A stretch of DNA of 38,325 nt from Alphaproteobacteria bacterium (lineage in GTDB: Bacteria; Pseudomonadota; Alphaproteobacteria; DSM-16000; Inquilinaceae). Below are positions 1 through 28,043 of the stretch, piece by piece; position 1 is the first letter of the stretch; each line of letters starts with the position of its first letter. The DNA is taken from contig JANQKE010000072.1 in assembly GCA_028281265.1 (NCBI GenBank), positions 1 to 38,325 of the forward strand, given 5' to 3'. Both the position numbers and the translations under genes were made by a program. The notes under the pieces are model-generated. The model saw only the letters and a list, made by a program, of their open reading frames with translations. It was not told where the DNA came from and searched no databases.

Positions 1-94
1 CGTCGAATATGCCCCGGCATGTCCTTCCTCCTCGCTCCTGGCATCAGGGCCCATCCCCCTCGGCAGATCGGCCCGATAGTCCCTGAAAACGCTC
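1..94. repeat. Element A, long copy (left end of window)
   Basis: This stretch is repeated in inverted orientation at 38196-38289; I count four mismatches in 94 positions (15, 34, 70, 71), with no gap. It may continue beyond the left edge. Its inner end carries the core AGCGTTTTCAGGGA (read on the minus strand) and runs directly into the TAG stop of the minus-strand hydrolase gene. Shorter core-only copies occur at 10345, 17404 and 25503. No coding function is evident. Confidence 0.85.
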
Positions 95-717
95 TAGCCG
101 GCCACGCCGTAATGGGCCAGGATCTCGTCCCGGGTCATGAGGTCGGCGTATTTCTGGCCCATGTCGAACAGGTTGGCCTCATGCGGGCCCATCGCCCGGT
201 CGCCGACGCAATCGGTCACCACGATGGTGCGGTAGTTGTGGCTGACGGCGTCGACCACCGTCGCCCGTACGCAGCCCGATGTGGTGCAGCCGGTGATCAG
301 CACCGTGTCGATGCCGTGCCAGGTCAGCCAGCCGGCGAGGTCGGTGCCGAAGAAGCCGGACGCCTGACGCTTGCGGACGATCAGTTCGCCCGGTTGCGGG
401 TCCATCTCCGCGACCAGCCGGCTCAGCGGGCTGGTTTCGGTCAGCTTCAACAGGCCCGGCGCCTTCTTGGTGAACGCGCCGCCGTCCGAGCCGTCATCGG
501 CGTAGACCACGCGGGTGTGGGCGATCGGCCAGCCTTGCGCCCGGGCGGCCGCCAGCAACGGCACTGTCGCCTGCACCGCGTCGGTGATGTTGCCGCCACC
601 GAAATGCTCCGGATCGGTGAAGGACAGCACGAAGTCGACGGTGATCAGCGCCGGCCGGTGTCCCAGGCCGACCCGGTTGGCGAAGTTCTGCTTCTTGTAG
701 ATGTCGAGCTCGTTCAT
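94..717 (-). CDS. Isochorismatase-family cysteine amidohydrolase (maleamate / N-carbamoylsarcosine amidase-like)
   Basis: This 207-residue protein has the cysteine-hydrolase triad in its usual order: D28 (in TVDFV), K116 (in IVRKRQAS) and C149 (in TTSGCVRAT). A cis-peptide-like stretch ITGCTTSGC precedes the nucleophile. The early segment FTDPEHFGGGN resembles N-carbamoylsarcosine amidases and maleamate amidohydrolases (NicF) more than true isochorismatases. Family members hydrolyse C-N amide bonds in the cytosol, releasing ammonia. It is the last gene of a minus-strand run with an FAD monooxygenase (17-bp gap) and a TAXI-TRAP transporter, so a catabolic deamidation step is inferred. The stop codon TAG is the first base triplet of repeat element A. 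The substrate cannot be told from sequence; nicotinamidase is less likely because its metal-binding histidine pattern is not apparent. Confidence 0.8.
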   Translation of the reverse strand: MNELDIYKKQNFANRVGLGHRPALITVDFVLSFTDPEHFGGGNITDAVQATVPLLAAARAQGWPIAHTRVVYADDGSDGGAFTKKAPGLLKLTETSPLSRLVAEMDPQPGELIVRKRQASGFFGTDLAGWLTWHGIDTVLITGCTTSGCVRATVVDAVSHNYRTIVVTDCVGDRAMGPHEANLFDMGQKYADLMTRDEILAHYGVAG

Positions 718-734
718 CCTTCTACCCCTTCGGC

Positions 735-1931
735 TCAGGCCACCTGATCGAGATCGCGCAGCGACTGCAGCATCGAGGAGCGGCGGACATAGGCCCGGTG
801 TGCGGTCTCGTCGGCCACGGTGCGGCGCAACTCGTCATGATAGGCGCGGCGGGCATCGGGATCGCGCTCGTTGAGGATCTTGCGGTTGCGCAAGGCCTGC
901 GCCTGCACCGTCTCCAGCGCGACCTTCCGGCGCTGCCGCTCGTACCGGCCGATGCCGGCGAGCGGGGCGCCGTGCCAGACGGCGGTGAGCTTCTCGGAGA
1001 GGTTCACCGCGTCGTGGATGCCGCCGTTCATCCCCATGCCCCCCAGCGGGTTGTTGAGGTGGGCGGCGTCGCCGGCCAGGAACACCCGGCCATGGACGTA
1101 GGCCGCCGCCACCCGCTCATGCACGCGATAGGCGGTCTTGTGGATCAGCTCGTAAGCGCCGTCCTTGGGGCACACCGCCTGCAGCCGCGCTTCCACCCGG
1201 TCCGGGGCCATCATCTCGGCCTCGGTCTCGTTCGGGTCGGTCGGCAGCAGCACCCGCCACAGGGTCGGGGTGCGCAGCAGGACGACCCACTCCTCGGGGT
1301 CGGAGATGTAGGCGATGTTGGTCAGCTCCGGGATCGTCCGATCGAACCGGAACGGGGTGGAGACGGTCAGGAAGATCTCCGGGATCGTCATGCCGTCGAA
1401 GGCGACCCCGACCGACTTGCGCACCATGCTGCGGGCACCGTCCGCCCCGATCAGGAACCGTCCACGGATGTCCTGCCGATGGCCGTCGGCGCCGGCGATG
1501 GTCAGCGTCACGCCGGTGTCGTCCTGGGTCAGATCGACCGCTTCGACGCCGTACAGGATCTCGCTGGCGGCTTCGGCCTCCAGCCGGTCGCGCAAGATTC
1601 GGGTCAGTTTCCACTGCTCGCATTGCAGGCGATAGGGATGCCGGGTCTCCCCGGCCAGCAGGCCCAGATCGAAGGTGGCGATCACCCCCTCGCGGCGGTC
1701 GCGGAACTGCCATTGCGGGCATTTCAGCCCCTGGGCCACGACGCTATCGGCCACCCCGAGCGCGTCGAGCATGTCGAGCGTCGGTGGATGGAAAGTCGAG
1801 GCGCGCAGATCTTCCGGCAGGTCGGTGCTGGCCTCGATCACCGTGACCTCGATCCCGGCCCGGGTAAGCGACAGCGCGGCCGTGAGCCCCACCGGGCCCG
1901 CCCCGACGATGACGACACCGGTCGACTTCAT
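735..1931 (-). CDS. FAD-dependent aromatic-ring monooxygenase (PF01494-like flavoprotein hydroxylase)
   Basis: This 398-residue protein has the three landmarks of single-component flavin hydroxylases: the dinucleotide fold GAGPVG at residues 10-15, the DG motif (GADGARS) at 162-168, and the GD motif (FLAGDAAH, G287-D288) that holds the FAD ribityl chain. The C-terminal helix after NPLGGMGMNGG is typical. Such enzymes use NAD(P)H and O2 to hydroxylate phenols, hydroxypyridines or similar rings. The ATG overlaps the stop of the upstream TRAP permease gene (ATGA), so the two are probably translationally coupled and the substrate is probably what the transporter brings in. Length agrees with the 6-hydroxynicotinate and salicylate hydroxylase group rather than the longer PheA/TfdB group. 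The exact substrate is unknown. Confidence 0.82.
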   Translation of the reverse strand: MKSTGVVIVGAGPVGLTAALSLTRAGIEVTVIEASTDLPEDLRASTFHPPTLDMLDALGVADSVVAQGLKCPQWQFRDRREGVIATFDLGLLAGETRHPYRLQCEQWKLTRILRDRLEAEAASEILYGVEAVDLTQDDTGVTLTIAGADGHRQDIRGRFLIGADGARSMVRKSVGVAFDGMTIPEIFLTVSTPFRFDRTIPELTNIAYISDPEEWVVLLRTPTLWRVLLPTDPNETEAEMMAPDRVEARLQAVCPKDGAYELIHKTAYRVHERVAAAYVHGRVFLAGDAAHLNNPLGGMGMNGGIHDAVNLSEKLTAVWHGAPLAGIGRYERQRRKVALETVQAQALRNRKILNERDPDARRAYHDELRRTVADETAHRAYVRRSSMLQSLRDLDQVA

Positions 1932-3892
1932 TTCTTGGCTCCTTCGCCCAGCGGGGCGCTCAGCGGGCTGCCGGCGGTGCCCTTGGCGCCCCGGCTCGCA
2001 AACCAGGCCGCCCCGGCGACGGCGGCAGCCACGAGATAGACCAGCGGCGCCATCGGGATCATCGCCGGCGGCAGCAGGAGCGCGATCCCGGCCGCGGCGA
2101 TCGTCAGCCGCAACAGCGGGGTCAGGAGGCCGCCGGCATAGCCGACGATGGCCGCCGTGATCAGCATGACCCCGGCCGCGGCGGTGACGGCGGCGGTCAC
2201 GTTCTCAACCGGACTGCCGGCCAACAGCAGGCTCGGCGACAGGGCGAACAGGAACGGCACCACATAGGCCGGCCAGGCGATGCGCACCGCCTCGAACCCG
2301 GTGCGCATCGGCGGGGCGCCGGCCATGTTGGCGGCGACGAAGGCGGCGATCGCGACCGGCGGGGTCAGCATCGACAGCATGCCGAAATAGAGCACGAACA
2401 TATGCGCCGACATCGGCTGGAGCCCGAGTTCGATCAGCGGCGGGGCGGCGAGGGTGGCGAGCAGCAGATAGACCCCGACCGTGGGCAGCCCCATGCCCAA
2501 CAGGATACAGACCAGGGCGGTGACGAACAGCAGCAGCAGCAGGCTCGTCTGGCCCAGCTGCACCAGGAAGAACGTCATCCCGAAGCTGAGCCCGGACAGG
2601 GAGAACAGCCCGATGATGATCCCGGCGGCGGCACAGATGATGACGATCTCCACGGCTGTCTGCCCGGTATCGGCCAGCGCCTTGATCAAGCCCCGCACCG
2701 TGATCCGGGGGCCGGCATAGGTGCGGAGCAGGGAGATCAGGAACAATGTGCCGACGGCGTACAGCGCCGCCGTCTCCGCCCGCATGGCAAAGGCGAATAG
2801 GCCCGTCAGCAGCACCGCGAACGGCATCAGCAGGAACCAGCCGCGGCTGACCGTGCTGCCGAGCTTGGGGATCCGGGTCGGATCGACCCGGCGGATGCCG
2901 CGCCGGCCGGCCTCGAGATCGGCGAAGATGAACAGGCTGAAGAAGTAGAGCAGCGACGGCACGATCGCCGCGACGATCACGGCCGTGAACGGCACCTGGA
3001 GGTTCTCGGCCAAGAGGAAGGCCGACGCGCCCATGATCGGCGGCATGAGCTGCCCGCCGGTACTGGCCGAGGCCTCGATCGCCGCTGCGGTCTTGGGCCT
3101 GTAGCCGTCGTTCTTCATCAGCGGGATGGTAATCCCGCCGGTCGAGGCGACGTTGGAGACGGCACTGCCGCTGATCGTGCCGAACAGGGCCGAGCCGACG
3201 ATGGCGATCTTGCCCGCCCCGCCGCGGTACCGGCCCATCAGCCCGGCCGAGAGATCGGCGAAGAAGGCCGACCCGCCGGTCGCCATCAGCAGGCGCGCCA
3301 AGAGGATGAAGGGGATCACCACCGCCACGGCGATGTAGAGCGCGGCCCCGGCCATGGCGGCGGAGTCCAGCACCATGAAATTGACCACCCGGCGCAGCGA
3401 GATCGCGCGACCCTCCAGCGGGCCGGGGAAGAGGTTGGCGTACAGGGCGTAGAAGGCGACCGCGAGCAGGATGGCGAGAAGGCTCCAGCCGATCGCCCGC
3501 CGTAGCGCTTCCACCAGCAATATCAGGCCGATCGAGGCGGTGACGATCGCCTGCGTGGGGCGGAAGAACACCGATTCGGACAGATCGGTGAACACGATCG
3601 TCAAATAGACACCATAGACCAGGGCAATGGCCGCCAGGAGATAGTCGTAGACCGGGATCGGTCGGGTGACTTCCGACGACCGGTCGACGCGACGGGTCAG
3701 AAAGCAGACCGCCAGCCCCATCATCAGGACTGCGATCAACGTCTGTTCGGCATAGATCCGGATGCCCAGACGGATCGGCCCGCCCAGCGACCAGAAGATC
3801 GCCACCGCCGTCATCGCCACCCCCAGCGCCGGCACCAGCCAGCGCCGGGTGAAGCGATCATGCGGGCACAGTTCCGCCAGACGGTCGGTCAT
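1928..3892 (-). CDS. TRAP transporter permease, fused 4TM/12TM type (TAXI family)
   Basis: This 654-residue, strongly hydrophobic protein has an N-terminal block of about four membrane helices followed by a long DctM-like region. That is the fused small-plus-large membrane subunit layout of TAXI-type TRAP transporters. DctM-like segments include SGSAVSNVASTGGITIPLM (about residues 242-260), GASAFLLAENLQ, and LLGMGLPTVGVYLL. It would sit in the inner membrane and use an ion gradient to import an organic anion delivered by the periplasmic binding protein encoded 51 bp upstream. The gene overlaps the downstream monooxygenase gene by four bases. The ATG has only a weak GA-rich ribosome site, so the precise start is less certain than the family. 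Confidence 0.9.
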   Translation of the reverse strand: MTDRLAELCPHDRFTRRWLVPALGVAMTAVAIFWSLGGPIRLGIRIYAEQTLIAVLMMGLAVCFLTRRVDRSSEVTRPIPVYDYLLAAIALVYGVYLTIVFTDLSESVFFRPTQAIVTASIGLILLVEALRRAIGWSLLAILLAVAFYALYANLFPGPLEGRAISLRRVVNFMVLDSAAMAGAALYIAVAVVIPFILLARLLMATGGSAFFADLSAGLMGRYRGGAGKIAIVGSALFGTISGSAVSNVASTGGITIPLMKNDGYRPKTAAAIEASASTGGQLMPPIMGASAFLLAENLQVPFTAVIVAAIVPSLLYFFSLFIFADLEAGRRGIRRVDPTRIPKLGSTVSRGWFLLMPFAVLLTGLFAFAMRAETAALYAVGTLFLISLLRTYAGPRITVRGLIKALADTGQTAVEIVIICAAAGIIIGLFSLSGLSFGMTFFLVQLGQTSLLLLLFVTALVCILLGMGLPTVGVYLLLATLAAPPLIELGLQPMSAHMFVLYFGMLSMLTPPVAIAAFVAANMAGAPPMRTGFEAVRIAWPAYVVPFLFALSPSLLLAGSPVENVTAAVTAAAGVMLITAAIVGYAGGLLTPLLRLTIAAAGIALLLPPAMIPMAPLVYLVAAAVAGAAWFASRGAKGTAGSPLSAPLGEGAKK

Positions 3893-3943: not shown

Positions 3944-4903
3944 TTACTCGGGCCAGACGCCCATTTCCTGGTAGAACCGGATCGCGCCCGGGTGGAACGG
4001 CACGTCCACGTCGCTGCCCATCCGGTCGCCCTCGAAGCCGTGCCAGAACGGACCCACGCCCAGCAGCTCTTCCTCGTTGTCGTACAGCGCCTTGACGACC
4101 TGGTAGACCCATTCGTCCGGGGTCGAGCTGTTGGCGAACAGGGTGTAGTCGTAGACCTTGATGTTGGTCGGCTCATCGATGCCGGGGATCTCCGCCTCCG
4201 GCCCGACTTCGGCCAGATACATCTGCGGCAGCCATTCCTGCATGGCCGCCAGCCGATCCTCACCTTCCGCGAAGCTCAGGAACCGCACGCCGCCGACGGT
4301 CTGGTCGAGCTCCCGGTTGGTGCCGCTGCCGACCACGACGACGGTCACATCGGTCGAGCCTTCCCGGAAGGAGTCCCACATCCGCGGGAAGTTCGGCACC
4401 GGCACCTCGACCACGTCATCATAGGTGAGACCGGCATTGGCGAGATAGGCGAGGGTGACGTGATATCCCAGGCTGCCCTCGGCGAAGCCCGGCACCCGGC
4501 GGCCTTCCAGATCGGCGACCGAGCCGATATCGCTGTCCTCACGCACGATGAAGCCGGCCCGGAACGGCATCAGCACCGCCACGGTGCGCAGATCGGGACC
4601 CGGCCGGCCCTCGGACATCCCTTGACCGTGATAGGCGTACCAGAGTTGGACCACGTTGGAGATGCCGAAATCGATCTCCCCGAAATTGACCAGCGGCATG
4701 TAGTCGGCCGTGTTGGCCATTTCCTGCGGCCGCATCGACAGCGGTGAATGCTCGGACACCGCGGCCGCGATCGACCGGCCGATCTGGCTGGTGCCGCCGG
4801 TGGCGGTCGAGGCGAGACCGACGACCTGGGCCGCAACCTCGGTCGTCGTCGCGGGCACCGCCAACGTAGCGGCCAGGCCGACGGCCAGAAGCATCTTCTT
4901 CAT
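3944..4903 (-). CDS. TAXI-family TRAP transporter solute-binding protein
   Basis: This 319-residue periplasmic protein starts MKKMLLAVGLAATLAV and has a classic signal peptide ending near residue 25 (EVAAQ). The mature start VVGLASTATGGTSQIGRSIA matches the TAXI (TRAP-associated extracytoplasmic immunogenic) family, where the Gly-Thr-Gly-like loop lies near the ligand site. I chose the ATG at 4903 because AGGGGAA lies just upstream and the signal peptide begins there; the frame is open further upstream but that part looks non-coding. It is first in the minus-strand run with the fused permease, monooxygenase and hydrolase. A perfect palindrome TTGTCCGGACAA lies about 160 bp upstream. TAXI proteins bind dicarboxylates, glutamate-like or other organic acids; the ligand here is unknown. 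Confidence 0.9.
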   Translation of the reverse strand: MKKMLLAVGLAATLAVPATTTEVAAQVVGLASTATGGTSQIGRSIAAAVSEHSPLSMRPQEMANTADYMPLVNFGEIDFGISNVVQLWYAYHGQGMSEGRPGPDLRTVAVLMPFRAGFIVREDSDIGSVADLEGRRVPGFAEGSLGYHVTLAYLANAGLTYDDVVEVPVPNFPRMWDSFREGSTDVTVVVVGSGTNRELDQTVGGVRFLSFAEGEDRLAAMQEWLPQMYLAEVGPEAEIPGIDEPTNIKVYDYTLFANSSTPDEWVYQVVKALYDNEEELLGVGPFWHGFEGDRMGSDVDVPFHPGAIRFYQEMGVWPE

Positions 4904-5063
4904 TCTGAATTCCCCTGTTCGGTTCGACCGCCATGCACCCCTTGCGGTCTTGGTTCGGATCGTGAGTTCGGGACGCGGAGCGGCGGGTGGTCTGCCGGCC
5001 GATGCGCGCTGATCGCATCGGACCCGGCCGGAGACCCCGTGACCCGGATACGCCGGTAGAGAT

Positions 5064-5075
5064 TTGTCCGGACAA
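5064..5075. promoter_or_regulatory. Palindromic operator TTGTCCGGACAA upstream of the TAXI-TRAP operon
   Basis: This is a perfect 12-bp inverted repeat in the 275-bp gap between the HMG-CoA-lyase-like gene and the TAXI gene. An extra half-site TTGTCC follows at 5082-5087. The identical 12-mer occurs at 6196-6207 in the other promoter region of this cluster. The GTC-GAC arms resemble operators of FCD-type GntR regulators, which is inference. No regulator gene is present nearby. Confidence 0.65.
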
Positions 5076-5178
5076 GCTTGGTTGTCCACCCCCCAAATTG
5101 CGCGAACACCGGAATCCGCGACATCTGATTGCGGTCACCGCCGCTCCGCAGAGGTTTTCTTCGGCGGCGCACGGGTGG

Positions 5179-6093
5179 TCAGGCGGCCAGGGGGGCGGGC
5201 GGAAACACGCCGGCGCGGCTGATCGCCCCGGGGGGACGCTTGCCGAGAACCTCTTCGAGCCAATGGGCGGCGGCGACCAGCGCGTCGACGTCGATCCCGG
5301 TCGAAATCCCCATGCGCTCGAGCATCCAGACGGTGTCCTCGGTGGCGATGTTGCCGGTGGCCGCCGGGGCGAAGGGGCAGCCGCCGACACCGCCGATGCT
5401 GGCATCCAGCGCATCGACCCCGGCCTCGACCGCGGCCGCCACATTGGCGAGGCCGGTACCCCGGGTGTCGTGGAAATGGCAGCGGAGGGCGGCGGTGCCA
5501 CCCATCGCCTTGAGGCCGGACAGCAGGGCCGTGACCTGGGAGGGGACACCGCAGCCGATCGTATCGGCCAGCGCGATCTCATCCGGCTCGGCGGCCAGGG
5601 CCCGTTCGGCGACGTCGAGCACGCGGGTGGCCGGCACCTCGCCCTCGAACGGGCAGCCGAAGGCAGCCCCGATGGTGATGGAGCAGCGCTTGCCGGCCGC
5701 CTTGGCCTGCCGGGCGATGGCCGACCAGGCCGCCAGCGACTCCTCGGTGCCGACCCCTTGGTTCTTGCGGTTGAAGGTATCGCTGGCGACGACGACGAAG
5801 TTGATCTCGTCGCACCCGGCCGCGATCGCGCGATCGACGCCCTTGGCGTTCAGCGCCAGGCCGATGAACGCGGCGTCATCGCGCCCTTTGAGACCGGCCA
5901 TGACGGCGTCGGCATCGGCCATCTGCGGCACGCGCTTGGGGTTGACGAAACTGGTCGCCTCGACCCGCCGGATGCCGGCCGCAAGCGCCCGGCCGACCAG
6001 TTCCAGCTTCTGCGCCGTCGATACGGGCTGCTTCTCGTTCTGCAGCCCGTCCCGCGGGGAGACTTCGACAATCTCGATTCTGCGTCCGCTCAC
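5179..6093 (-). CDS. Hydroxymethylglutaryl-CoA lyase family protein
   Basis: This 304-residue TIM-barrel lyase carries the HMG-CoA lyase hallmarks: SPRDGLQNE (R14-D15) at the start, HFHDTRGTG with metal-binding H206 and H208, and GGVGGCPFAP with the flexible-loop C239. These enzymes cleave a 3-hydroxy-3-methyl-acyl-CoA to acetyl-CoA and an oxo acid. In leucine catabolism the gene normally sits with methylcrotonyl-CoA carboxylase genes, which are absent here. It lies instead between a TRAP/monooxygenase operon and a CoA-transferase operon, so a related substrate (for instance a citramalyl-like CoA ester) is possible. The start is GTG, preceded by GGAGGGA at good spacing. It reads divergently from the CoA-transferase gene, sharing the intergenic palindrome at 6196-6207. 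Confidence 0.88.
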   Translation of the reverse strand: MSGRRIEIVEVSPRDGLQNEKQPVSTAQKLELVGRALAAGIRRVEATSFVNPKRVPQMADADAVMAGLKGRDDAAFIGLALNAKGVDRAIAAGCDEINFVVVASDTFNRKNQGVGTEESLAAWSAIARQAKAAGKRCSITIGAAFGCPFEGEVPATRVLDVAERALAAEPDEIALADTIGCGVPSQVTALLSGLKAMGGTAALRCHFHDTRGTGLANVAAAVEAGVDALDASIGGVGGCPFAPAATGNIATEDTVWMLERMGISTGIDVDALVAAAHWLEEVLGKRPPGAISRAGVFPPAPLAA

Positions 6094-6156
6094 GAGCGGG
6101 TCCCTCCATTCCCGGATCTACATCGGCCGATGGATGAGCCGGTCAACCGCCGGGGC

Positions 6157-6184
6157 TTGTCATCCGCCACCGGTCTGCTATCTA
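6157..6184 (+). promoter_or_regulatory. Predicted sigma-70 promoter of the CoA-transferase operon
   Basis: A TTGTCA box (6157-6162) is followed after 16 bp by TATCTA (6179-6184), preceded by TG to make an extended -10. The start of transcription would fall near 6191. The palindrome at 6196-6207 would then lie just downstream of it, a position suited to repression. Confidence 0.5.
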
Positions 6185-6195
6185 GCATGACGAAA

Positions 6196-6207
6196 TTGTC
6201 CGGACAA
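6196..6207. promoter_or_regulatory. Palindromic operator TTGTCCGGACAA upstream of the CoA-transferase operon
   Basis: This perfect 12-bp palindrome is identical to the one at 5064-5075. Outer bases add partial symmetry (AA at 6193-6194 against TT at 6209-6210). It lies between the divergent HMG-CoA-lyase-like gene (start 6093) and CoA-transferase gene (start 6223), and just downstream of a predicted promoter. A common regulator for both halves of the catabolic cluster is inferred. Confidence 0.7.
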
Positions 6208-6222
6208 CTTTGAGGACCGACG

Positions 6223-7467
6223 ATGACCGCAGCCCCCGCGACACCCCCGACCCGAGGCCCGCTGGACGATCTGCGGGTGATCGAAATGGGGCAGCTCCTC
6301 GCCGGTCCGTTCTGCGGCCAGTTGTTCGCCGATTTCGGTGCCGAGGTGATCAAGCTGGAGGCGCCGGGGACCGGCGACCCCATGCGGCAATGGGGCCGGG
6401 AGAAGCCGCACGGCCAGTCGCTGTGGTGGCCGGTGATCGCGCGCAACAAGAAGTCGGTCGAATTGAATGCGCGGGAGAAGGACGGCCAGGATCTGGTCAA
6501 GGCCCTGGTGGCGGAAAGCGACATCCTGTTGGAGAATTTCCGCCCCGGCACGATGGAGAAATGGGGTCTGGGCTATGACGAACTCGCCGCGATCAACCCC
6601 AAGCTGATCATGGTCCGGGTCTCGGGCTATGGCCAGACCGGGCCCTATGCCAGGAAGGCCGGGTACGGCTCGATCGGCGAGGCGATGGGTGGGCTGCGCT
6701 ATGTGGTCGGTGATCCGTCGACCCCGCCGAGCCGGATGGGGATTTCGATCGGCGACACGCTGGCCGCGACCTTCGCGTGCATCGGCGCGTTGACGGCTCT
6801 GCACGCGGTCCAGCGCACCGGCCGCGGCCAGGTGGTCGACAGCGCGATCTACGAGGCGGTCCTCACCGTGATGGAATCGCTGATCACCGAATACGACAAG
6901 GCCGACTATATCCGCGAACGCACGGGTCCGATCCTGCCGAACGTGGCGCCCTCGAACGTCTATCCGACTTCCGATGGGCTCTATGTGCTGATCGCGGCCA
7001 ACCAGGACACGGTGTTCGCTCGCCTGGCCGACGCCATGGGCCGGCCGGAACTGGCGACCGATCCGCGCTACGCCACCCATTCGGCCCGGGGGGCGGTGCA
7101 GCCGGAGCTTGACGCCATGATCGCGGCGTGGAGCCGGACGATGACGGCGGCCGAGCTGGGCCCGCTGTTGGACACCCACGGCGTGCCGCGCGGCGACATC
7201 TACCGCGCGCCCGAAATCCTGGAAGACGTCCACGTCAAGGCGCGGGAAGCGGTGGTGCGCATCGCCCACCCGACCTTCGGCGATCTGGCGATGCAGAACG
7301 TCGCCCCGAAGCTCTCCGGCACGCCGGGCGGCATCCGCCATCCGGGACCGGAGTTGGGGGCGCACAACGCCGAGGTGTTCGAAGGGTTGCTCAAGCTCGA
7401 TCCGGCGCGGCTGGCCGACTTGGCCGCCCGGGGCATCATCGGTGCGCCGCGCCGCGCGGCCGCCTGA
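6223..7467 (+). CDS. Class III (CaiB/BaiF) CoA-transferase
   Basis: This 414-residue protein is the usual length for family III CoA-transferases, which move CoA between carboxylic acids through an aspartyl anhydride. Visible family features are the N-terminal GPLDDLRVIEMGQLLAGPF, the ENFRPGTMEKWGLGY segment (about 104-118), SGYGQTGPYA (134-143) and the nucleophile D178 in ISIGDTLAATFA. The gene begins a plus-strand operon: the next gene starts at or before its TGA and the third overlaps the second. In this context it probably activates the dicarboxylate made by the oxidative genes to its CoA ester, making it a substrate for the HMG-CoA-lyase-like enzyme. Donor and acceptor are not deducible from sequence. 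Confidence 0.9.
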   Translation: MTAAPATPPTRGPLDDLRVIEMGQLLAGPFCGQLFADFGAEVIKLEAPGTGDPMRQWGREKPHGQSLWWPVIARNKKSVELNAREKDGQDLVKALVAESDILLENFRPGTMEKWGLGYDELAAINPKLIMVRVSGYGQTGPYARKAGYGSIGEAMGGLRYVVGDPSTPPSRMGISIGDTLAATFACIGALTALHAVQRTGRGQVVDSAIYEAVLTVMESLITEYDKADYIRERTGPILPNVAPSNVYPTSDGLYVLIAANQDTVFARLADAMGRPELATDPRYATHSARGAVQPELDAMIAAWSRTMTAAELGPLLDTHGVPRGDIYRAPEILEDVHVKAREAVVRIAHPTFGDLAMQNVAPKLSGTPGGIRHPGPELGAHNAEVFEGLLKLDPARLADLAARGIIGAPRRAAA

Positions 7468-7468
7468 C

Positions 7469-8242
7469 GTGACGGACGCGCCGCCGCGGCATCGCTCGGC
7501 CTATGCCTGGCGGGCCAAGCTGGGTCTGATCGTCCCGCCGACCAACACGGTCAACGAGGCCGAATGGGCACGGTTGATGCCGGACGGGGTCACCGCCCAC
7601 ACCATGCGGATGGTGCTGCACGACACCGCGTCGGCGGCGGGCGAAGCGGCGCTGTGGGCGGATCTCGAACAGGCGGTGGGCCATCTCACCCCCGCCCGGG
7701 TCGACGTGATCGCCTATGCCTGCACGGCCGGCTCCATGACCGTGCCGCCGACGGCGATGGCGGATCGGTTGAGCGGCCTGGCCGAGCGGCCGGCCGCCAC
7801 GACCGCGGCGGCGATCGTCGCGGCGCTGCAGGCGCTGGGTGTCGCGCGGCTGGCCGTGGCCACGCCGTATCACCAGGCCCTCGACGACCATGAGGTCGCG
7901 TTCCTGACCGGTTGCGGCTTCGCGGTGACCGCGATCGCCGGCCTCGGCCACGGGGCGGGCGGACGGCATGAATACACCCGCATCGCCGAGACACCGCTGG
8001 AGGCGGTCGCGGGCCATGCGCGCTCGGTGATGACGGCGGAAGCCGAAGCGCTGCTGCTGTCCTGCACCGACTTCCCGACCCTGAAGCTGATCCCCGACCT
8101 GGAGCGTGAACTCGGGGTGCCGGTGATCAGCTCCAACACCGCGACCCTGTGGCGGTGTCTGCGCCTGGCCGGGATCGCCGACGACCGGCCGGCCGGCGGC
8201 CGGTTGTTCGCCTGCCCATGGAGTGGAGTGACCCCCGCATGA
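7469..8242 (+). CDS. Maleate isomerase / Asp-Glu racemase superfamily protein
   Basis: This protein of about 257 residues has the two-domain racemase fold signature with both catalytic cysteines: C85 (in AYACTAGSM) and C199 (in LLLSCTDFPTL). The N-terminal LGLIVPPTNTVNEAEW is characteristic of maleate cis-trans isomerases and arylmalonate decarboxylases. Decarboxylases of this family keep only the second cysteine, so an isomerase or racemase is favoured. I place the start at GTG 7469, directly after the CoA-transferase TGA; another in-frame GTG at 7442 would add nine residues, and neither has a good ribosome site. Beside a maleamate-amidase-like hydrolase, a maleate-type product turned into its fumarate-type isomer is a reasonable inference. 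Confidence 0.82.
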   Translation: MTDAPPRHRSAYAWRAKLGLIVPPTNTVNEAEWARLMPDGVTAHTMRMVLHDTASAAGEAALWADLEQAVGHLTPARVDVIAYACTAGSMTVPPTAMADRLSGLAERPAATTAAAIVAALQALGVARLAVATPYHQALDDHEVAFLTGCGFAVTAIAGLGHGAGGRHEYTRIAETPLEAVAGHARSVMTAEAEALLLSCTDFPTLKLIPDLERELGVPVISSNTATLWRCLRLAGIADDRPAGGRLFACPWSGVTPA

Positions 8243-9081
8243 CCGTGACCGCCGATCCCTCCCTGGTCGATCGTATCGTCATCGTCACCGGCGGCAGCCG
8301 GGGGCTGGGCCGGGAGATGGCGCTTGCCCTGGCGGAGGCGGGGGCGCGTGTCGTCATCACCGGCACCGACCGGGCCGCCCTCGACCGCACGGTGGCCGAC
8401 GGGGAGGCCGCGTCCGCCCCGGGCCGGATGGTGGCGGCGGTCGCCGATGTGCGGGTCTTCGCCGAATGCCAACGGGTGGTGGCGACGACGCACGCGGCCT
8501 TCGGCCGGCCTGCGGTGCTGATCAACAATGCCGGCCGCGGCATGCGGCTGATCAGCGAGGCCTTCACCCACGAGCCGACCCGGTTCTGGGAGACCGACCC
8601 CGCGGCCTGGGCGGAGATCGTCGACGTCAACGTCAACGGCGCCTTCAACATGGCCCGGGCGGCGGTGCCGTCGATGGTCGAGGCCGGCTTCGGCAAGGTG
8701 ATCGGCATCTCCACCAGCGCCCAGACCATGGTGCGCCGGGGCTACGCCCCGTACGGCCCCTCCAAGGCGGCGCTGGAGGCCGCCTCCCGGATCTGGGCGC
8801 AGGATCTCGCCGGCACCGGGGTGGACGTGAACGTCTATCTGCCGGGCGGGGCGTCGGACACCGACCTGCTGCCCGACCGGCCGGACAAGCGCGGGGCGGA
8901 CGGCAATCTGCTGCCGCCGGCGATCATGCGCCCCGGCATCCTTTGGCTGGCCAGCGATCTCTCGAACGGCCACACCGGTGGCCGCTACATCGCCCGGCTG
9001 TGGGACACTACCCTGCCGCCGGCCGACGCCGCCCGTGCCGCCCGCGATCCCGATGCGGCCCCGCCGGTCGGGGTGCGGTGA
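8239..9081 (+). CDS. Short-chain dehydrogenase/reductase (SDR family)
   Basis: This 280-residue classical SDR has the cofactor motif TGGSRGLG near residue 18, NNAGRG after the fourth strand, a catalytic serine in STSAQTM, and the catalytic pair in YGPSKAALE (Y-x-x-x-K). A long insertion follows the NNAG motif. The ATG overlaps the preceding stop codon (ATGA at 8239-8242), marking tight translational coupling with the isomerase-like gene, so it should act in the same pathway as an NAD(P)-dependent alcohol/ketone oxidoreductase. It is the last gene of the plus-strand operon. Substrate is unknown. Confidence 0.87.
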   Translation: MTVTADPSLVDRIVIVTGGSRGLGREMALALAEAGARVVITGTDRAALDRTVADGEAASAPGRMVAAVADVRVFAECQRVVATTHAAFGRPAVLINNAGRGMRLISEAFTHEPTRFWETDPAAWAEIVDVNVNGAFNMARAAVPSMVEAGFGKVIGISTSAQTMVRRGYAPYGPSKAALEAASRIWAQDLAGTGVDVNVYLPGGASDTDLLPDRPDKRGADGNLLPPAIMRPGILWLASDLSNGHTGGRYIARLWDTTLPPADAARAARDPDAAPPVGVR

Positions 9082-27065: not shown

Positions 27066-28043
27066 ATGAGCTATCCCACCCCGGAATTGCCGCCGCCGGC
27101 CGACCCGCTGGGGGAAACCCTGCATCTGCTGCGGCCGATCGGAACCCTGTATTGTCAGGGGGCGTTCAGCGCCCCGTTCGGCATCGCGATCCCCGACCTT
27201 TCCGGTGTGATGACCTTCCTGGTCGTGATGTCCGGCCGCTGTTGGGTGGAGAGCGATGACGGCGAGCGCTGCCGGGTCACCGAAGGGGAGTTGGTGCTGA
27301 TCCCGCACGGCCGCCCCCATGTGATCAGCAGCGATCCGTCCGTGACCCCGGCGCGGTTGTTCGATCTGCCGGTCGAGAAGGTCAGCGATCGCTATGAACG
27401 CATGGTCTATGGCGGCGGCGGCGAGGTCGTCCGGACGATGTACGGCGTCGTCCGGTTCGACGACGTCGCTGCGCAGAACCTGATCCGGCTGTTGCCGTCG
27501 ATCATCCGGATCGATGCCGGGGATGGTGACGCCTGCGGCTGGCTGAACAGCACGGTCCGGTTCATCGCCGCCGAGGCGGCGGCGCTACGGCCGGGTGGGG
27601 AGACCGTGATCACGCGGTTGGCCGACATCGTCGTGATCCAAGCCATCCGCGCCTGGCTCGATCGCGCGCCGGAGGCCGATCAGGGATGGTTGGCGGCGTT
27701 GAAGGATCGCCAGATCGGTGGTGCGCTGGCCCTCGTGCATCGGGCCCCGGAGCGGGCGTGGAGCGTGGATGCCCTGGCCCGCCAAGTCGGCATGTCGCGA
27801 TCGGCGTTCGCCGCGCGGTTTGCGGACATGGTGGGGCAATCCCCCATGCGCTACGTCACCTGGTGGCGGATGCAACTCGCCCGTGCGCGGCTGCTGGAGG
27901 GCAAGCAGACCATATCGGCGATCGCCGCTGCCCTGGGCTACGAGTCCGAAGCCGCCTTCGGCCGGGCCTTCAAACGGGTGTTCGGCCTGTCACCCGGCGG
28001 GATCCGTCGTCAGCCGCCACCGACCCTGGCCTTGACCGCGTAA
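27066..28043 (+). CDS. AraC-family transcriptional regulator with cupin sensor
   Basis: This 325-residue regulator has an N-terminal cupin sensor domain (LVVMSGRCWVE, GELVLIPHGRPHV) and a C-terminal pair of helix-turn-helices (WSVDALARQVGMSRSAFAAR and ISAIAAALGYESEAAFGRAF). The layout matches the cupin_6 subgroup of AraC regulators. ATG 27066 is preceded by GGAGGAGG at six bases; ATG 27060 lies too close to that site. It is divergent from the NmrA-like gene, which together with the DUF1772 gene is the likely target. Confidence 0.9.
   Translation: MSYPTPELPPPADPLGETLHLLRPIGTLYCQGAFSAPFGIAIPDLSGVMTFLVVMSGRCWVESDDGERCRVTEGELVLIPHGRPHVISSDPSVTPARLFDLPVEKVSDRYERMVYGGGGEVVRTMYGVVRFDDVAAQNLIRLLPSIIRIDAGDGDACGWLNSTVRFIAAEAAALRPGGETVITRLADIVVIQAIRAWLDRAPEADQGWLAALKDRQIGGALALVHRAPERAWSVDALARQVGMSRSAFAARFADMVGQSPMRYVTWWRMQLARARLLEGKQTISAIAAALGYESEAAFGRAFKRVFGLSPGGIRRQPPPTLALTA

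Follow-up and report, generated by a model that had tools for sequence, protein, structure and literature searches.

The DNA analysed here, the window, is 38,325 nt long and makes up the whole of contig C140 in the 4.33 Mb genome (232 contigs) of an alphaproteobacterium of the Inquilinaceae. Its left end carries a catabolic gene cluster with two copies of a 12-bp palindrome (Table 1). The operon behind copy 1 has the order TAXI–DctM–FAD monooxygenase–isochorismatase. The closest structures to the CoA-transferase are of family III, for example 4ED9, and the succinate-hydroxymethylglutarate CoA-transferase 9BR6. The true start of the Amdase-like protein is probably a little downstream of 7442. 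Judged from sequence, the gene mix hints at a nitrogen-containing ring or amide that is broken down to a dicarboxylate entering CoA chemistry.

Table 1. The catabolic cluster, its palindromes and the candidate regulator gene. Positions are those of the window unless a contig is given; bit scores are from a matrix built on sites beside related regulators.
Feature	Position	Strand	Remarks
Isochorismatase-family amidohydrolase	94..717	-	closest PDB 3OT4/3UAO
FAD-dependent monooxygenase	735..1931	-	closest PDB PnpA 6AIN, then HspB 7DA9
Fused TRAP permease (DctM)	1928..3892	-	TIGR02123 above cut-off
TAXI-type TRAP solute-binding protein	3944..4903	-	TIGR02122 above cut-off
Putative operator copy 1, TTGTCCGGACAA	5064..5075	.	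160 nt upstream of TAXI start codon (4903); 25.7 bits
HMG-CoA-lyase-like (HMGL-like) lyase	5179..6093	-	NF004283 above cut-off
Weak promoter-like stretch, TTGTCA-16 nt-TATCTA	6157..6184	+	found by eye; missed by consensus scan
Putative operator copy 2, TTGTCCGGACAA	6196..6207	.	between divergent lyase (-) and CoA-transferase (+), 15 nt to CoA-transferase ATG (6223) and 103 nt to lyase start (6093, opposite strand); 29.5 bits
Family III CoA-transferase	6223..7467	+	orthologues in L164 and L165 77-78% identical
Arylmalonate decarboxylase (Amdase)/maleate isomerase-like protein	7442..8242	+	longest ORF; closest structure maleate isomerase 2XEC
Short-chain dehydrogenase (SDR)	8239..9081	+	
Candidate regulator, GntR-UTRA (HutC-type), 262 aa	G000:C17:26114-26899		

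The preliminary description had reported these two identical 12-mers and no other in the window, and both the positions and the uniqueness hold: the nearest further match, TCGTCCGGACGA at 27427, has 2 mismatches. It had also called for a genome-wide count, which shows the 12-mer to be rare. A pattern search found 3 exact copies in the genome (the two in the window and one at G000:C11:8434). Markov models of order 0–4 trained on DNA from the genome expect 0.07–0.14, and chance is therefore a very poor explanation for a pair only 1.1 kb apart. With up to one mismatch allowed there are 8 sites, compared to 2 for a reversed control pattern. The flanks of the two window copies differ, with no duplicated block visible.

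A promoter had been predicted just before copy 2. A consensus scan of positions 4880–6260 found no sigma-70 promoter there, and a terminator scan was likewise empty, but the prediction is weakly matched by eye: TTGTCA at 6157–6162 is followed after 16 nt by a -10-like hexamer at 6179–6184 with TG before it (TGcTATCTA), and this -10-like stretch is partly kept in the orthologous cluster L164. With such a promoter, the copy 2 palindrome would cover about +5 to +16, where repressors commonly bind.

The spacing within the palindrome suggests which proteins may bind it. Operators of GntR-family regulators differ in the distance between GT and AC: 3 (sometimes 2) nt in the FadR/FCD subfamily, 4 nt in the HutC subfamily (PMC4494728). 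The window sites read TT-GT-CCGG-AC-AA; 4 nt separate GT from AC in this palindrome, as in HutC operators. The genome has four proteins with the UTRA domain, and one of them, encoded on contig C17, is our candidate.

We fetched 80 loci from named genomes by protein alignment of the subfamily of the C17 protein, with no use of the DNA motif, and included flanks of at most 10 kb in either direction. The fetch passed through a single peptide ([VL]SR[HY]TVREA), and mycobacteria account for about a quarter of the loci, which are therefore not all independent. When self-palindromic 12-mers were ranked de novo, TTGTCCGGACAA came first, at 25 of the 80 loci with 0.044 expected; the second, TTGTACGTACAA, occurred at 7 loci, and 59 other palindromes of the same half-site composition had a mean of 0.05 loci. 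Exact copies near regulators also occur in Aquibium, a Rhizobium bin, Roseomonas, Falsiroseomonas, Tepidamorphus, a Steroidobacteraceae bin, Stutzerimonas, Pseudomonas and others. Of the 75 motif copies listed from 385 genomes of the class, 19 have a C17-like gene no more than 15 kb away, where about 0.6 would be expected. Among the 55 genomes with the motif, 24 also have a C17-like gene (odds ratio 5, P = 8e-7, without correction for phylogeny).

In the mycobacterial loci (L180–L229) the site is found at about 8200, a constant 1.75 kb or so upstream of the regulator gene, which likely reflects a conserved mycobacterial regulon. Azospirillum and Bordetella relatives (L194, L196, L203, L204, L210, L213, L227) have TTGTACGTACAA nearby instead, possibly a shift of specificity inside the subfamily.

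Five other bacteria join orthologues of the window genes, a regulator gene and the site at one locus (L151, L152, L156, L164, L165). In L164, from a Beijerinckiaceae bin, TTGTCTGGACAA occupies the corresponding place between lyase and CoA-transferase, with 15 nt from site to CoA-transferase ATG as in the window, and the regulator gene directly follows the SDR gene. Protein identities to the window are 58% for the monooxygenase, 76% for the amidohydrolase, 78% for the CoA-transferase, 64% for the lyase, 62% for the SDR and 42% for the TRAP genes. The lyase and TAXI genes are contiguous in L164 and have one site; in the window 275 bp separate them and each unit has its own. L165 has TTGTCCAGACAA, the complement strand of TTGTCTGGACAA, between lyase and CoA-transferase, 13 nt before the ATG (a distance taken from the sequence; the MAFFT alignment shifts L165 by a few bases). 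The site precedes the lyase gene in L151 (exact) and L156 (TTGTCCATACAA) and the monooxygenase gene in L152 (TTGTCTGGACAA). In Tistrella the regulator gene is on one replicon piece and two sites, TTGTCCGGACAA and TTGTCCAGACAA, are on another with a distance of 51 nt between them, which repeats the arrangement of regulator and sites on separate pieces seen for the window. This pair (L293:9939 and 9990, in the Tistrella mobilis relative G273:C2) precedes a cluster of cupin, Amdase, CoA-transferase, HMGL, NIPSNAP-like and isochorismatase genes, which also contains an FCD-type GntR gene.

The preliminary description had placed the regulator gene outside the window, and the candidate on C17 is in keeping with that. 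Its product has an N-terminal GntR winged helix-turn-helix (PF00392, 77.3 bits, cut-off 27) and a C-terminal UTRA domain (PF07702, 74.6 bits, cut-off 23.8). Against NCBIfam equivalogs (HutC, PhnF, TreR, Rv0792c and others) every score is below cut-off, including PhnF (88.5 of 156.8) and HutC (83.2 of 220). The protein is 45–49% identical to subfamily members in three other genomes (G005, G006, G048), and the genome's other three UTRA proteins are outside the subfamily. A tree of 44 regulators groups it with those of L151, L152, L156, L165 and Tistrella (support 95/89), the other three UTRA proteins falling away from this group. It is also the genome's best match to the regulators of all five orthologous clusters.

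The C17 gene is not a neighbour of the cluster. It comes to within 517 bp of the end of its contig, and the cluster is likewise at a contig end; joining C17 to C140 by end overlap failed, as the ends share no sequence. There are no exact or one-mismatch sites on contig C17 and thus no sign of autoregulation. Strict TTGTNNNNACAA sites within about 1.5 kb on either side were found for 1 of 30 relatives, so as a rule the site is carried by neighbouring operons and not by the regulator's own promoter.

We consider it highly probable, from sequence comparison, that one HutC-subfamily (GntR-UTRA) repressor, most likely the C17 protein, uses both palindromes as its operators. That a single GntR-family regulator is common to both promoters, as first proposed, is well supported by the spacing, the UTRA association and the orthologous clusters. 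The sites, their rarity and placement, the cross-phylum link to the regulator subfamily and the clusters joining both were computed directly. DNA binding, repression over activation, an inducer and the C17 protein as the acting one are what we infer from them. A dimer would bind the palindrome of 12–16 bp (extended 16-bp consensus ATTTGTCCGGACAAAT) through its winged helix-turn-helix, with SRHTVREAL as the putative recognition helix. It would prevent transcription at two places: the divergent promoter between the lyase and CoA-transferase genes and the one ahead of the TAXI-TRAP/monooxygenase/amidohydrolase operon. Some metabolite of the pathway, bound in the pocket of the UTRA domain, would free the repressor from DNA, and uptake and breakdown genes would therefore be turned on together.

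Another HutC-type protein might bind both copies in place of the C17 protein, namely a closer orthologue encoded in DNA that the assembly lacks, perhaps immediately left of window position 1. The cluster stops 94 bp from the contig edge, and in L151, L152 and L156 the regulator gene comes after the isochorismatase gene, which is the edge gene here. We find this unlikely: the assembly is 99.4% complete, the C17 protein already clusters with cluster-resident regulators, and a second close homologue was not found.

Improbable, too, is the preliminary description's proposal of an FCD-type (FadR-subfamily) GntR regulator. The half-site TTGT/ACAA is common to both subfamilies, and the genome has 10 FCD genes vs 4 UTRA genes. 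In Tistrella relatives, a cluster with CoA-transferase, lyase and isochorismatase genes even includes an FCD gene, at a distance of 1.7 kb from a motif copy. However, neither the FadR/FCD spacing of 3 or 2 nt nor the FCD effector domain is found in the window sites and the C17 protein, respectively. Genes within 10 kb of the motif at 68 motif-bearing loci include 18 UTRA and 5 FCD genes, and a UTRA gene is present in 5 of 5 orthologous clusters. In motif-bearing relatives the regulators beside the 12-mer are UTRA genes of one subfamily, and none of the genome's own 10 FCD genes shares a contig with an exact copy (the surroundings of three, L041, L042 and L043, were inspected).

That the two copies are identical by chance, or as a remnant of a duplicated promoter with no regulatory meaning, can be dismissed even though a third exact copy lies where there is no catabolic gene: about 0.1 copies are expected per genome (0.07–0.14), the flanks differ with no duplicated block, the site is retained at the same place in orthologous clusters, and 25 of 80 regulator loci have it where 0.044 are expected and control palindromes average 0.05.

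Both the HutC regulators and the palindromes they bind are well known. Members such as HutC, NagR/YvoA, DasR, PhnF and TreR share with the proposed system a GntR winged helix plus UTRA, a palindromic operator with GT and AC 4 nt apart, and sites in the divergent and operon promoters of a catabolic pathway. The window operator differs in its centre, CCGG vs MTAK, and the genes are those of CoA-transferase, lyase and TRAP proteins rather than histidine or sugar genes. The TTGTACGTACAA palindrome near some relatives of the C17 protein presumably resembles the ara box of AraR, whose effector domain differs from UTRA. The AraR DNA-binding domain (4EGY) is a sequence match of the C17 protein. SRH in the C17 protein matches the Arg and His at helix-turn-helix positions 38 and 39 of Bacillus subtilis AraR (PMC4494728, Table 1).

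The mechanism is ordinary, but the regulator-operator family appears to be undescribed. In the papers searched, the 12-mer was not found printed in a bacterial context (the only match was a Drosophila paper), the matches listed for its 10-mer core were all eukaryotic work, and no paper was found linking GntR/UTRA with TRAP and CoA-transferase genes or with maleamate amidohydrolase. We favour, with some reserve, the broader reading of a new HutC-type subfamily with the near-invariant operator ATTTGTCCGGACAAAT, present in Alpha-, Beta- and Gammaproteobacteria and mycobacteria and controlling poorly known CoA-transferase/lyase/TRAP pathways. If this is correct, the 12-mer would be a genome-mining tag for such pathways, including the window's own with its HMGL-like lyase, CoA-transferase, maleamate-amidohydrolase-like and monooxygenase genes. 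With so little variation in the operator from phylum to phylum, searching for the bare 12-mer would flag catabolic units with TRAP/TAXI uptake, family III CoA-transferases, HMGL-like lyases and Amdase-like proteins. What was an orphan palindrome is now half of a regulator-operator pair that can be tested and for which a candidate gene can be named, and the corrected subfamily (HutC, not FCD) determines which protein is worth purifying. The inducer, once found, would also identify the pathway substrate.

The genome likely holds a small multi-site catabolic regulon, since the one-mismatch site TTGTCCGAACAA also precedes units on contigs C78 and C36. On C78, at 10358, it is about 150 nt before an operon of an Amdase-like protein and a FAD monooxygenase that shares 43% identity with the window enzyme, and genes for an aldehyde dehydrogenase and DctP-type TRAP proteins are close by; on C36, at 38409, it is about 90 nt before an HpcH/HpaI aldolase gene. 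In other genomes (L031, G006:C300; L158, G005:C42), the motif is found upstream of operons for transporters and for polysaccharide-deacetylase-like, SDR, PrpD-like and EthD-like proteins, which we read as further catabolic units under the same site. The exact copy on C11 has weak flanks (20.9 bits vs 25.7 and 29.5) and no catabolic neighbour. It (L001:1501, L004) has TTGTCCGGTCAA 146 bp away at C11:8580, in a gap with many GGTTACAG/CTGTAACC-like repeats next to a toxin-antitoxin pair of RES/Xre-like type. Elsewhere in the genome, CTGTCCGGACAA occurs at G000:C29:24225 (L251:1501), between citrate synthase-like and glutamyl-tRNA synthetase-like genes.
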